Translations under genes and position numbers: made by a program
Origin: Synechococcus sp. LTW-R
GTDB taxonomy: Bacteria; Cyanobacteriota; Cyanobacteriia; PCC-6307; Cyanobiaceae
Direction of reading: 5' to 3'
Assembly (NCBI RefSeq): GCF_014217875.1
Contig: NZ_CP059060.1
Coordinates: forward strand, 1,426,001 to 1,490,000
DNA length: 64,000 nucleotides
Shown: in pieces, positions 40,185-50,016 of the stretch
Layout: every line of letters starts with the position of its first letter
Position numbering within the stretch: position 1 is the first letter of the stretch
The notes under the pieces: model-generated
Database searches by the model: none
Told to the model about the DNA's origin: nothing
Seen by the model: the letters and a program-made list of their open reading frames with translations, nothing else

Positions 40185-40802
40185 ATGACTTCGCAGTCGC
40201 AGGTTGAACGTCCTGATCTGGATGCGTTGTTTGCGGATCTGGCCCATCCCAACCCCCATCTGCAGACCCAGGCTTATTTGGCGATGGTTGACCATTGGCC
40301 AAACGAGTCGATGCCACGCCTCATCTCGCTGTTGGATCAACCCGATGTGTCCTTGCGTCGCGCTGCTGTGCGCGGTCTCGGAGCCTTTGGTGCGACAGCA
40401 TTGCAACCCCTTGCGGAGCTGTTTGAAAACAGCACGGACGGCACGGTGCGCGCCAGCTGCGTGAAGGCCTACGCCCAGATTGCATCCAACTACCCGGATC
40501 AGACCTTCTCACCTGCCGCGATGGCTGTGCTGGAGAAGGCGCTGTCGGACGACTCCCCCGTGGTGTCGCAGTCGGCAGTGATGGCCCTTGGCCAGGTGGG
40601 TGTTCAAGCGCTTCCCTTGTTGATTCAGATCTGCAAGGGAGACAACATCGCCCATGTGCAGTCAGCTGCCATGGCGTTGGCTGAAATTCCTGATCCCAGT
40701 GCAGAAGCCTGTCTCAGAGAGGTGCTGGCTGATCCCTCCACCGATCCGCTGTGCCGGCAGATGGTGGAAGCCTCCCTCGGCCGACTTGAGAGCAGCCGAT
40801 AA
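40185..40802 (+). CDS. cpeZ: CpeZ-type HEAT-repeat protein of the bilin lyase family
   Basis: Predicted 205 residues made of HEAT/PBS-lyase repeats: DVSLRRAAVRGLGAFGATAL, SPVVSQSAVMALGQVGVQAL, HVQSAAMALAEIPDPSAE. The size matches CpeZ, which in Fremyella works with CpeY as a chaperone-like partner in adding phycoerythrobilin to CpeA Cys82. It lies directly downstream of cpeBA but after a terminator. CpeZ is preferred over an E/F subunit since both E and F are found elsewhere in the window. Confidence 0.8.
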   Translation: MTSQSQVERPDLDALFADLAHPNPHLQTQAYLAMVDHWPNESMPRLISLLDQPDVSLRRAAVRGLGAFGATALQPLAELFENSTDGTVRASCVKAYAQIASNYPDQTFSPAAMAVLEKALSDDSPVVSQSAVMALGQVGVQALPLLIQICKGDNIAHVQSAAMALAEIPDPSAEACLREVLADPSTDPLCRQMVEASLGRLESSR

Positions 40803-46567: not shown

Positions 46568-46903
46568 ATGATTCCGTCCAGCAAAAGCTTAAGCCGAATG
46601 GCCGTTGCCGAAAGCGCAGCTCAAGAGATCCGTCGATTTGTTGAATTGCATCAATCCGGATCGGCACTGAATCAAATCGCCTCGCTTGATGATCTCAATG
46701 CATTGTTGAAGCAGGCTGAGAGCCCTTTGGCTGCCTCGCTTATCCCGCTTGAGCAGGCGACGCGTCCCCCCAAGATTCTGGTGGACTCGGGCGTCACAGA
46801 ATCAAAGGTGCCCTGGCGAATTCTTCAGTGCCCGGGCGGTCCTTTGGTGCTGCAGATGATCTGTGAAAAGGTTAATTTTGCCCTCTGGATTCAGGAGTGC
46901 TGA
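46568..46903 (+). CDS. Hypothetical protein upstream of the Nif11 gene
   Basis: Predicted 111 residues, soluble. An N-terminal helix (AVAESAAQEIRRFVELHQSGSAL) and a second helix (SLDDLNALLKQAE) precede a compact strand region ending GGPLVLQMICEKVNFALWIQEC. Its stop overlaps the start of the next gene, so the two are probably made together. The family is unknown to me; base composition is AT-richer than in the flanking core genes. Confidence 0.66.
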   Translation: MIPSSKSLSRMAVAESAAQEIRRFVELHQSGSALNQIASLDDLNALLKQAESPLAASLIPLEQATRPPKILVDSGVTESKVPWRILQCPGGPLVLQMICEKVNFALWIQEC

Positions 46904-47493
46904 TGATGGCTAACTCTGAACTTGAGCGTTTCGTCCAGGCAATTGCTGATGATCACGGGCTAGCCACGGGAATCAAGACGCTTGGCTCCCATTACGACAT
47001 CGTTGCCTACGCCAACATCCGTGGCTACTCGATCACCTTGGCGGAATGGGGGAGATATCTGGCTATGGATTGGTTGCAGAGCTCCGATGCCGATCTGGCC
47101 TCTGTTCACCGAGCCGATCCAGCCCATTGGAGCTGGGCGTTCCGTCAATTGTCCCGCTGGCGTGCGCTGTTGATGGATGGTGCTGAATCCGAGGGAATGC
47201 TTGGCCCCGCAGATTTTGCAGTGACCCGGGATCAGTCCGCTGCCCCGCCGGCCAGCGTCCCGGCACCCACCCTGACGGATGCAGAGAAAGATGCGGCTTT
47301 GGTGTCGTTCATCCAGCTGGTGAAAACACGGCCTGATCTCAAGGACCAGGTGAAATCAGCACGGAACCAAGATGAGGTGATTGGCTTGGCCCAAACCCAG
47401 GGTTTTGCCATTGATTCGCTCACACTGTTGCGCAGTTGGAGTCAGGTGTCTGACTTCAGCAAACCCACCTGGTTTGGCTGGTTTGATGATTGA
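46903..47493 (+). CDS. Tandem Nif11-domain protein in the phycobilisome region
   Basis: Predicted 196 residues with two Nif11-like domains. Domain 1 (about 5-52): SELERFVQAIADDHGLATGI, then YDIVAYANIRGYSITLAEW. Domain 2 (129-179): KDAALVSFIQLVKTRPDLKD, then DEVIGLAQTQGFAIDSLTLL. They are joined by a tryptophan-rich stretch and a proline linker; the end is PTWFGWFDD. Nif11 domains occur in nitrogen-fixation loci and as leader peptides of modified peptides; no core peptide or modifying enzyme is seen here. AGGAG at 46893-46897 serves the ATG at 46903 or 46906. Confidence 0.72.
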   Translation: MMANSELERFVQAIADDHGLATGIKTLGSHYDIVAYANIRGYSITLAEWGRYLAMDWLQSSDADLASVHRADPAHWSWAFRQLSRWRALLMDGAESEGMLGPADFAVTRDQSAAPPASVPAPTLTDAEKDAALVSFIQLVKTRPDLKDQVKSARNQDEVIGLAQTQGFAIDSLTLLRSWSQVSDFSKPTWFGWFDD

Positions 47494-47498
47494 TCGCT

Positions 47499-47807
47499 TC
47501 AGCTGATCTCCGCATAGCGGGTGCGTGTGGTGCCACGTTTGGCCCAATAGGTCACCAGTGATTCACCACCGGGCCTGGGAACTGATGCTGTGGCGCGAAG
47601 GATCTTGAAGGTGCGCCTTGGCCCCATCGGCCAGTTGCCGGCAGCTGCAATTTTTCGCACGCGTCCACCGATGGCTTCAATGCAACGCTCGAATTTTTCG
47701 AGGTGGGTTTGATCCACCGTTTCAAAGATGAAATCGGTTCCTTCGCAAATCAGATGCTGCGACCGGATCCAGGTTTTCAGTTGTTTCTCGGCCTCAATTG
47801 CAGACAT
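47499..47807 (-). CDS. cpeR: CpeR-like regulator of phycoerythrin genes
   Basis: Predicted 102 residues. The segments LKTWIRSQHLICEGTDFIFETVD, HLEKFERCIEAIGGRV, WPMGPRRTFKILRATASVPRP and SLVTYWAKRG follow the pattern of CpeR, the small protein needed for phycoerythrin operon expression in Fremyella, where it is encoded at the end of cpeCDESTR. Here too it lies after cpeS and cpeT. The regulatory mechanism is unknown; no clear DNA-binding motif is visible. Confidence 0.7.
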   Translation of the reverse strand: MSAIEAEKQLKTWIRSQHLICEGTDFIFETVDQTHLEKFERCIEAIGGRVRKIAAAGNWPMGPRRTFKILRATASVPRPGGESLVTYWAKRGTTRTRYAEIS

Positions 47808-47835: not shown

Positions 47836-48450
47836 TCACCACTGGAGCCAGTTCTGGTCCAGCTCGTTCCCGAGGTGAGCCACACGTTTGAACCGCAGCG
47901 GCCCGTGTTCGGAGCCCCAGCGCTGCTCATCTGTGTCGGGGTCAAAGCCTCGATCGCGACTGATCCAGTCTGTGGCGTTGACATCCACTTCGCTGACCAA
48001 ATAGGTCAGCCGGCCATCCCTGGGAACCATGCAGTTCTTGCCGGGTTCCACTTCACCCAGGTATCGACCGGATTCAACCTCGCGAAAGTGCATCCCACAG
48101 CCACAACGTGGTTTCAGAGACTCAGGCTTGAGGCTGTTGAGGAGTTCAGGGCGTTGGCCTGCACCCGCCAACCGGATGGGATCGGCGAATCCGTAGTTCT
48201 CAACGATGAACGTCTCACCCTCGGCCGGGAGCAATCGATGAATGCCTTGGCGATAGGGCCTCCAGGGATCATGGTCATAACTTTGCTCTGAATAAAACCC
48301 AGGTGCTTTCAGAACATCCCAGGGAAGCGGGCGAAAAAAGATATTGATGTGAGCGAAATCCTTGGGATTCTCCTGAGACTGTTGGAGATTGCTGTAGTGC
48401 CCTGCGAGCGTCTTGGCGAAGAGGAGAAGAGCCTCGTTGTTGTCTGACAT
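47836..48450 (-). CDS. cpeT: CpeT-type phycobiliprotein lyase
   Basis: Predicted 204-residue lyase of the CpcT/CpeT family. Family features are FAKTLAGHYSNLQQSQENP, INIFFRPLPWDVL, FYSEQSYDHDPWRPYRQGIHRL, CGCGMHFREV, and GKNCMVPRDGRLTYLVSEVDV. Members attach bilin to the beta Cys153/165 site; CpeT is taken to act on CpeB. It ends 28 bp before cpeR and starts 10 bp after cpeS. Confidence 0.88.
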   Translation of the reverse strand: MSDNNEALLLFAKTLAGHYSNLQQSQENPKDFAHINIFFRPLPWDVLKAPGFYSEQSYDHDPWRPYRQGIHRLLPAEGETFIVENYGFADPIRLAGAGQRPELLNSLKPESLKPRCGCGMHFREVESGRYLGEVEPGKNCMVPRDGRLTYLVSEVDVNATDWISRDRGFDPDTDEQRWGSEHGPLRFKRVAHLGNELDQNWLQW

Positions 48451-48460
48451 TGGCGTGGGA

Positions 48461-48997
48461 TCAGCTGCTCAGGCGCCGCACTTCAGAAGCGAAGGACGTT
48501 TGCAACACACCTGATCCAGCCGATGTGCGGAGCACGGAGGAGCGGCAGCGAACATGCTCCGAGACAAACCAGATGCGTTCCTCGGCAATGGATTGCTCGT
48601 ATTGCGTGGTGAGCAGAAATGTTCCGTCGCTGAGAAAGCTGTAGCTGGATTCTGCTGGCGCTGCTTCTGCATAGCCAACACTCCGAAGCAGAACGCCTTT
48701 GCTGCCATCGCTTGGAATGGGCACAATCAGACATGAACCGGATGAAACCTCATTTGGATCATCAGGTTCCCAATCGCTTTCGGCGGCCCAGGTCATTCGA
48801 AAGGGTGCCGAGACCTCTGATTCTTGACTGAGGCTCGACGATTGAATCAAGTCCTTGATCTCTTTATCGGAAGCTTCAATCCGTGATATTTGAACTTCAC
48901 TGAGGACTTCTTCAAATTGCTGAAAAGCGAGGGAGTGGCCAGATCGCATTGATCGCCACGTTCCCTCGCTTTGAGCAACAAATTGCTCGATGTTCAT
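48461..48997 (-). CDS. cpeS: CpeS-type phycobiliprotein lyase
   Basis: Predicted 178-residue lipocalin-fold lyase. It opens with NIEQFVAQSEGTWRSMRSGHSLAFQQFEE, then GVLLRSVGYAEAAPAESSYSFLSDGTFLLTTQYE and EERIWFVSEHVRCRSSVLR. CpeS attaches phycoerythrobilin to Cys82 of phycoerythrin beta. Its ATG overlaps the stop of a newly found 56-codon frame upstream by ATGA. The second S-type paralogue is at 37.7 kb. Confidence 0.85.
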   Translation of the reverse strand: MNIEQFVAQSEGTWRSMRSGHSLAFQQFEEVLSEVQISRIEASDKEIKDLIQSSSLSQESEVSAPFRMTWAAESDWEPDDPNEVSSGSCLIVPIPSDGSKGVLLRSVGYAEAAPAESSYSFLSDGTFLLTTQYEQSIAEERIWFVSEHVRCRSSVLRTSAGSGVLQTSFASEVRRLSS

Positions 48998-49164
48998 TTG
49001 GTGCTGGAGTCGGTCTCAGCCTTCAGATCAGGACGGCTGTGCTGCACCATGTTCACCATGGAGTCGATCATCATCGACATGGCTACAGGAACGGAGGACA
49101 CAGAAGACTGGAAGCCCTGATTCGATCCCGGCTGGCTGTTGGTGGGTTGACGAAGGATGGGCAT
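48994..49164 (-). CDS. Short methionine-rich protein coupled to cpeS
   Basis: A 56-residue frame too short for a standard ORF list. It runs from an ATG at 49164 and its TGA overlaps the cpeS ATG in an ATGA, the usual sign of translational coupling. The protein is Ser/Gln/Asn-rich at the start (RQPTNSQPGSNQGFQSS) and has a Met-rich amphipathic helix (VAMSMMIDSMVNMVQHS) at about residues 27-43. No family is recognised. No clear Shine-Dalgarno site is seen. It is likely real given position, but expression is untested. Confidence 0.55.
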   Translation of the reverse strand: MPILRQPTNSQPGSNQGFQSSVSSVPVAMSMMIDSMVNMVQHSRPDLKAETDSSTK

Positions 49165-49248
49165 GATTCAAAAGCTGGCGTTTCAGGGGACGAAATCTCC
49201 CTGGATTCACCGATTGGGTCCAGACGATTTAGGCGTCAATCATGACGG

Positions 49249-49277
49249 ACTGATCCGGCCGTGAGGGCCGGATCAGT
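49249..49277. repeat. Perfect 12-bp inverted repeat after cpeE
   Basis: Arms 49249-49260 and 49266-49277 pair without mismatch around a 5-base loop, 8 bases after the cpeE stop on the minus strand. There is no T-run on either side, so it is more likely an mRNA-stabilising or processing hairpin than a terminator. Confidence 0.8.
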
Positions 49278-49284
49278 ACAAGCT

Positions 49285-50016
49285 TTAAGCGTTCGCAATA
49301 AAAAGAATGCGGCCACCCTGGGCTTGGATGCTTTGGATGGTTTTCGATAAGGAGCCGTAGCTCACAACCGAACGCTGCGCAGAGCGACGCACGCTTCCCA
49401 GCTGCAGCCGGGAGGTCCAGGAAATGGTGAAGCGTTCACCACCACCCACGACCTTGCGGGCACCGGCTGCGGTGGGGTTGGTCGAAGAAGCGACGCTCGT
49501 TTGCAAGACGGAAGCGCCATTGGTATCAAACCCGGCGTATCCCGGATCCATGGCTTGGGTGCGCTGGTATGCCAAAGTGCTTTCTCCCACAACGCTTGTC
49601 GCTGTACGAGCAAAGGGAACACCGTCGATACCGAAATTGTTCAGGTATTCATCGCTGTAGATGTAGCTCGCGATCTCCGCTTCAAAACCCTGGTCGGCGA
49701 GGCGACGAACGTGCTCGCTGACTTCGGCTTGATCGCGAGGTGGACGGCCCAGCAAGTGCTTGAAATTCAGCTCGACGAATCGGTAGGGGCTGTTGGTTTC
49801 CAAATAGAGGCGGCGGTACGTCTCCGACTGGGCAAGAGCTGTGACCAAACCCTGCACGGTCAGGTCGCCATTCATGAACAGCGCCTCGATCGAGGGCTGA
49901 ACGTCAAGCTCCATCAGGTAGCGGTTGCCGAAAACTTGGCGGTAGGCGGCACGGAGAACGTCGTCGGCTTGGCTGCGGTCTTGATTGGCTGGGCAGGTGA
50001 GTGTGGCGGTTGTCAT
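49285..50016 (-). CDS. cpeE: Phycoerythrin rod linker CpeE
   Basis: Predicted 243 residues. One PBS linker domain (PF00427) spans about 15-145: AAYRQVFGNRYLMELDVQ, YRFVELNFKHLLGRPPRDQAE, IASYIYSDEYLNNFGIDGVPF. A CpcD-like C-terminal domain covers about 192-243, ending GGRILFIANA. It places a phycoerythrin hexamer in the rod and caps it. Size matches CpeE of marine Synechococcus; MpeD is the alternative, but no bilin cysteine of the MpeC type is seen. Confidence 0.78.
   Translation of the reverse strand: MTTATLTCPANQDRSQADDVLRAAYRQVFGNRYLMELDVQPSIEALFMNGDLTVQGLVTALAQSETYRRLYLETNSPYRFVELNFKHLLGRPPRDQAEVSEHVRRLADQGFEAEIASYIYSDEYLNNFGIDGVPFARTATSVVGESTLAYQRTQAMDPGYAGFDTNGASVLQTSVASSTNPTAAGARKVVGGGERFTISWTSRLQLGSVRRSAQRSVVSYGSLSKTIQSIQAQGGRILFIANA

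Follow-up and report, generated by a model that had tools for sequence, protein, structure and literature searches.

The gene unk6 was described in 2007 as coding for a very short protein conserved in phycoerythrin (PE)-containing Synechococcus (Six et al., 2007, Genome Biol 8:R259; PMC2246261). In the available portions of that paper the product is given as 57-61 amino acids, the gene is placed upstream of cpeS in Prochlorococcus as well and is said to occur in all Prochlorococcus strains, annotation software is reported to miss it often owing to its small size, and Table 4 gives unk6 for WH7803 and not for RCC307. A literature search with thin coverage of subscription journals returned no later functional work on unk6. 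The lyase CpeS first attaches phycoerythrobilin (PEB) at Cys82 of the β-subunit CpeB; before this step β-subunits dissolve poorly, and CpeZ assists in keeping them soluble (PMC7948978, sections available). In HL Prochlorococcus a PE remnant of one β-subunit and a lyase has been discussed as a possible photoreceptor, and cpeB and cpeS make up most of the antenna reads reported for oceanic Prochlorococcus (PMC4890579).

The small frame upstream of cpeS and its relation to unk6

The window, a stretch of 64,000 nucleotides from Synechococcus sp. LTW-R, carries on its minus strand the order rod linker, unk6, cpeS and cpeT, as read with the help of Pfam (Table 1). The first-pass annotation of this DNA had pointed to a 56-codon frame on the minus strand that ends in an ATGA overlap with the cpeS start, and both are present, the frame being read from an ATG. 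Its further statement that the product resembles nothing recognised does not hold, as by location, size and phyletic pattern the frame fits the unk6 already described in 2007 (PMC2246261, available portions). Searched at E up to 1, the window peptide matches nothing in Pfam or NCBIfam; the gene was described long before, yet no model in either collection recognises this copy.

Table 1. Features of the window near unk6 (positions in the window).
Feature	Position	Strand	Remarks
unk6	48994..49164	-	56 aa plus stop; ATG 49164-49162, TGA ending 48994
unk6 codons 27-42 (VAMSMMIDSMVNMVQH)	49039..49086	-	conserved Met-rich segment, predicted helix
ATGA overlap, unk6 stop and cpeS start	48994..48997	-	read in the sequence
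cpeS, bilin lyase family	48461..48997	-	PF09367, E 2.7e-59
cpeT	47836..48450	-	PF06206
probable cpeR	47499..47807	-	no Pfam match above cut-off; named from position
cpeE-like phycoerythrin rod linker	49285..50016	-	PF00427 and PF01383 (CpcD domain); taken to be cpeE from position
perfect 11-bp hairpin, CTGATCCGGCC / GGCCGGATCAG, 5-nt loop	49250..49276	-	in linker-unk6 gap, without T run, by eye
CpeZ candidate	40185..40802		205 aa, HEAT repeats; taken to be CpeZ from size
Nif11 protein	46897..47493	+	198 aa, two Nif11 (PF07862) stretches; strand opposite to the cpeS operon

As in the published description, the window copy lies directly upstream of cpeS. The published pattern of presence in PE-containing strains such as WH7803, and of absence from RCC307 and from strains that lack PE, is also matched, for the WH7803 locus (L161) has an unk6 frame, 57% identical to the window copy, and in G070, which we take to be RCC307, unk6 does not adjoin cpeS. 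Two genomes with only a distant CpeS, G220 and G231, have no match to the unk6 profile. At 56 amino acids, the products counted in the window and in WH7803 fall just below the 57-61 stated in the available text (PMC2246261). Where that text has unk6 in all Prochlorococcus strains, there is here no match in G293 and none beside cpeS in seven g79 genomes.

The length of the frame was dropped as an argument for a gene, since 38% of 20,000 Markov-shuffled intergenic sequences hold an ATG frame of similar size (about 55 codons) on this strand. The idea that the frame is open by chance or non-coding, with which so unremarkable a length would agree, is refuted by conservation across Synechococcus and Prochlorococcus, by dN/dS and by constant position, and has practically no probability left. 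A profile built from 14 relatives, run against 400 genomes belonging to the family, matches 363 of them (E up to 0.01), paralogues included. A scan of named genomes, several of whose loci come from the same genomes as the G-numbered set, gave 57 unk6-profile loci, and in all 57 (one of them, L211, without the unk6 start at a contig end, another, L215, with CpeS cut by a contig end) tblastn places CpeS directly downstream. With L211 left out because its start is cut off, 56 loci can be compared. The two genes overlap in 47 of them, by 11 nt in 38, by 4 nt in 6 (the cpeS start of one, L207, being uncertain) and by 1 nt in 3; in the other nine they are separated by 9-16 nt. Within the stretches fetched, a CpeT match follows cpeS in 54/56 loci and a linker match precedes unk6 in 53/56.

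The frame is under purifying selection. The Ka/Ks check suggested beforehand gave, for unk6 against the window copy, dN/dS of 0.09-0.38 in those 14 of 17 comparisons in which dS is finite, single values being rough because dS exceeds 1 in many of them. In unk6, the three nearest relatives each show only 1-2 nonsynonymous differences and 3-4 synonymous ones. Across loci the sense frame holds zero stops, a count that follows partly by construction, the loci having been found by matching this same frame. The claim of a true gene translationally coupled to cpeS is thereby strongly supported by comparison, while cotranscription is read from gene order.

Around the gene itself, hairpins similar to that in the linker-unk6 gap were seen by eye in the leaders of the near relatives G174, G334, G235, G189 and G331; the window hairpin is perhaps a processing or attenuation site. 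Some 80 nt before unk6, an element GTCATGATTG seemed by eye to be conserved in relatives, and was dropped as a signal when the window proved to hold 3 matches with at most one mismatch against 3.24 expected. A search of 48900-49400 for RNA families gave one weak lncRNA match on the other strand (E 0.11, below the gathering score), which is taken as chance. The Nif11 protein of the window resembles a fused and reversed unk7/8 of WH7803 (Six et al., 2007; PMC2246261, available portions).

Protein anatomy, distribution and relatives of the helix

In 42 aligned members the residues M1, A28, M29, S30, M31, M32, S35, V37 and M39 are invariant. AlphaFold2, run on the same alignment, predicts a single helix at residues 27-42, with a mean pLDDT of 60 overall (52, 51, 63, 81, 61 and 45 in successive ten-residue blocks, the 81 being that of residues 31-40) and a pTM of 0.30; outside the helix the chain, modelled with low confidence, is probably flexible. 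Mean pairwise identity is 0.85 in the helix and 0.53 over the whole peptide, compared with 0.53 for CpeS and 0.83 for its best 16-column window. The helix looks like a partner-binding segment within a flexible chain. The methionine-rich amphipathic helix of the first-pass annotation thus survives as a predicted methionine-rich helix; its amphipathic character is weakly supported for the window core, where the hydrophobic moment of 0.27 (shuffle mean 0.16) is reached by 10.9% of shuffles, against 2.0-3.5% for Prochlorococcus, paralogue and freshwater cores and 19% for the g40 core.

Searches of the 42 members against Pfam and PHROGs gave scattered weak matches, the best in Pfam being E 0.0032 for one member, and none to the linker, CpeS, CpeT or HEAT models of Pfam. 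No solved structure matches at E up to 10. All 36 matches among 291 genomes of the class (E up to 0.001) fall within the family of the window's genome, which leaves zero homologues outside it. A phage-borne unk6 was considered and rejected, phage records giving no match and none of six pattern matches in viral contigs being confirmed.

The loci surveyed for unk6 beside cpeS are a selection from the listed CpeS matches, made with the unk6 matches already known, rather than a random sample, and joint presence of unk6 and CpeS was counted on the fetched loci and listed genomes. Frame disruption or a lack of amino-acid conservation under the same gene order would speak against a gene, and among marine Synechococcus-like loci from the CpeS list the frame is kept in 20/20 (19 by script, G294 by eye). 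In divergent, partly freshwater-like loci a recognisable unk6 is present in 16/20 (5 by script, 11 by eye), in some of them strongly diverged; the profile also matches beside cpeS in G126, G007 and G006 (E 5e-8 to 1e-4). The remaining four, G070, G115, G125 and G171, have no unk6 within 330 nt of cpeS, and in G070 a helix-bearing frame stands before sufE. Low-light Prochlorococcus-like loci (presumed ecotype) have unk6 in 9/10; in G153 (L124) the copy contains a stop and is either decayed or misread, and this genome has one profile match (E 6.5e-16). Among g79 genomes with CpeS, unk6 precedes cpeS in 0/7, and all seven have a profile match at another place, within a frame 118-142 codons long. 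Two of the 20 listed genomes without an unk6-profile match, G073 and G227, have a strong CpeS match (E < 1e-48). The g9 loci of G032, G191 and G237 hold a CpeS relative with neither a linker match nor unk6, and these relatives could be something other than true cpeS. On contig L211, labelled Deltaproteobacteria (UBA6967), the terminal part of unk6 precedes a CpeS that shares 69% identity with the window protein, so the contig is probably misbinned Synechococcus DNA.

The helix is also found away from cpeS. A second helix gene in the window's genome (G000:C1, 1091059-1091181) is a 78-aa frame (L072 4964-5200) upstream of sufE, sufE and the other neighbours being named by eye from translations, and this relative carries the same helix (ALSMMVSSMVHMVQ). 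Paralogue-type genes occur at another locus where the only CpeS is distant, as in G005, G013, G014 and G083; a pattern scan upstream of sufE gave no helix frame in G278, G174, G134 and G107. Eleven of the 20 listed genomes without a CpeS match have an unk6-profile match (E 4.9e-17 to 9.8e-5), among them G157, G224, G232 and G267, each at least 96% complete; of the matches whose type was inspected, that of G267 is repeat-bearing and that of G003 a paralogue. The helix itself is therefore not specific to phycoerythrin.

In the Prochlorococcus copies L064, L065 and L066, 11-residue repeats of the RARADLERVDQ type directly follow the helix. Such repeats lie in the cpeS-adjacent gene itself in G077, L175 and L182, and in a non-adjacent copy in the g79 genomes G102 and G213 and in G267. 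Further repeat-extended Prochlorococcus copies are L016, L051 and L129, some at a separate locus and some before cpeS. In each of four sequences examined, hydrophobicity over helix and repeats has a single period of 3.6-3.7 residues, which would suit an uninterrupted helix, and the methionine face may form the coiled-coil core of the repeat types.

A side observation concerns the origin of the region. The window CpeS is 94-97% identical to proteins of other genera (G174, 97%; G334; G235) as against 71-72% to those of the same-genus genomes G023 and G024, whereas a SufE query from same-genus G005 is 90% identical in the window's genome, 91% in G023 and 71% in G174. This discordance suggests, as far as sequence relatedness can, that the PE rod region of the window was gained laterally from another lineage; lateral transfer of rod genes has already been proposed (PMC2246261, available portions).

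Gene retention in Prochlorococcus and the proposed role

Seven small, HL-Prochlorococcus-like genomes (g40; presumed ecotype) were fetched at their unk6 matches. Because they were picked for unk6, only the presence of CpeS and CpeB and the absence of other genes are independent observations. In all seven the unk6 variant, recognised by eye, is followed by a CpeS-like protein (36-38% identical; PF09367 confirmed for one), and all seven have a CpeB relative (PF00502 confirmed for one). Matches to the window CpeT and to the window cpeE linker were found in 0/7, both being found in the control genome G033. A convincing match to the window CpeZ candidate was likewise found in 0/7, four giving weak ones of E 0.001-0.004, like G293; in two control genomes the candidate matches at E 7e-35 and 1e-23. 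G293 itself, from the same genus as the g40 genomes and with 100% completeness, lacks any match to unk6, CpeS, CpeT, linker or CpeB. With unk6 staying beside CpeS and CpeB while CpeT, linker and CpeZ are not found, the partner of Unk6 most likely lies in that pair.

We tentatively propose, with confidence that falls somewhat short of even, that Unk6 is a helical helper of the CpeS/β-phycoerythrin maturation step. The earlier suggestion of a small assembly or stability factor for phycoerythrin stays plausible in its general sense; the pattern of gene loss points to the CpeS/β-subunit step and away from linker or rod assembly, since unk6, cpeS and cpeB persist in the seven g40 genomes, where the CpeE linker finds no match. 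Unk6 would act together with CpeS on the β-phycoerythrin subunit, its helix docking on CpeS, on apo-CpeB or between the two, and might thereby help to hold the aggregation-prone apo-subunit, or to hand it over, so that phycoerythrobilin can be attached at Cys82. Coupled translation could bring the synthesis of Unk6 close to that of the lyase in both space and time. Unk6 would be a helper and not an essential part of the catalyst.

Several observations speak against such a helper. Some cpeS genes have no adjoining unk6, namely those of the four divergent loci and of the seven g79 genomes named above, and relatives of the helix occur in genomes without a close CpeS. The CpeS of MED4 is reportedly, by a cited title, a lyase on β-PE. 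CpeS also attached PEB to CpeB in E. coli, in an account whose available sections make no mention of unk6 (PMC7948978).

A broader proposal is that Unk6 is the founding member of a family restricted to picocyanobacteria, mostly disordered around a Met-rich helix, dedicated to the hand-over between apo-β-PE and CpeS and belonging with CpeB and CpeS to a minimal HL-Prochlorococcus set, its helix having been reused twice, in the sufE relative and in the coiled coil of 11-residue repeats. In this full form it is speculative and rather unlikely to be right throughout. If Unk6 is indeed a third constant member of the remnant, it would offer a concrete handle on the role of the remnant, and perhaps supply what has been missing for a cell-free reconstruction of phycoerythrin maturation.

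Alternative roles and comparison with known systems

The same evidence can be read in other ways. Unk6 might be a general helix adaptor, or a membrane or oligomer anchor, whose Met helix localises partners via coiled-coil or membrane contacts and whose link to phycoerythrin is by operon only. Such an adaptor would fit the helix copy that precedes sufE, both in the genome of the window and in others whose CpeS is only distant, as well as the profile matches in genomes lacking a CpeS match and the Prochlorococcus repeats with their single helical period, which also occur in cpeS-adjacent genes. The close tie to cpeS and the joint absence of unk6, cpeS and cpeB in G293 would be unexpected for it, and the four genomes that gave no helix frame upstream of sufE in the pattern scan weigh on the same side; altogether this seems unlikely, if by no means negligible. 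Less probable again, and on balance improbable, is a regulatory leader, in which translating the frame would govern how accessible the cpeS start is, the peptide itself doing little. The overlapping or touching frames in most of the 56 loci, one with an uncertain start, are what a leader would require, and against it stand the amino-acid conservation with dN/dS well below 1, the copies at other loci without cpeS downstream, and the nine loci with a gap in place of an overlap.

NblA, which is small and helical, tags phycobilisomes for degradation, and Unk6 could in principle be an adaptor of phycoerythrin turnover that works in the same manner, given its similar size and a structure of mainly one helix. 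No NblA model is among the Pfam matches of the 42 members at E up to 1, and unk6 sits among biosynthesis genes, so that this reading is very doubtful, more so than the leader.

Under the preferred reading, that of a helper to CpeS and the β-subunit, Unk6 can be set beside two known systems. With NblA it shares being a small helical protein of phycobilisome biology, and it differs in having no family match and in its opposite genomic context. With CpeZ it would share the kind of help, which consists, as described for CpeZ in the available sections of PMC7948978, in keeping β-phycoerythrin available to lyases; unlike the CpeZ candidate of the window, a HEAT-repeat protein of 205 aa, Unk6 would do so with 56 aa, a single predicted helix and no HEAT match.
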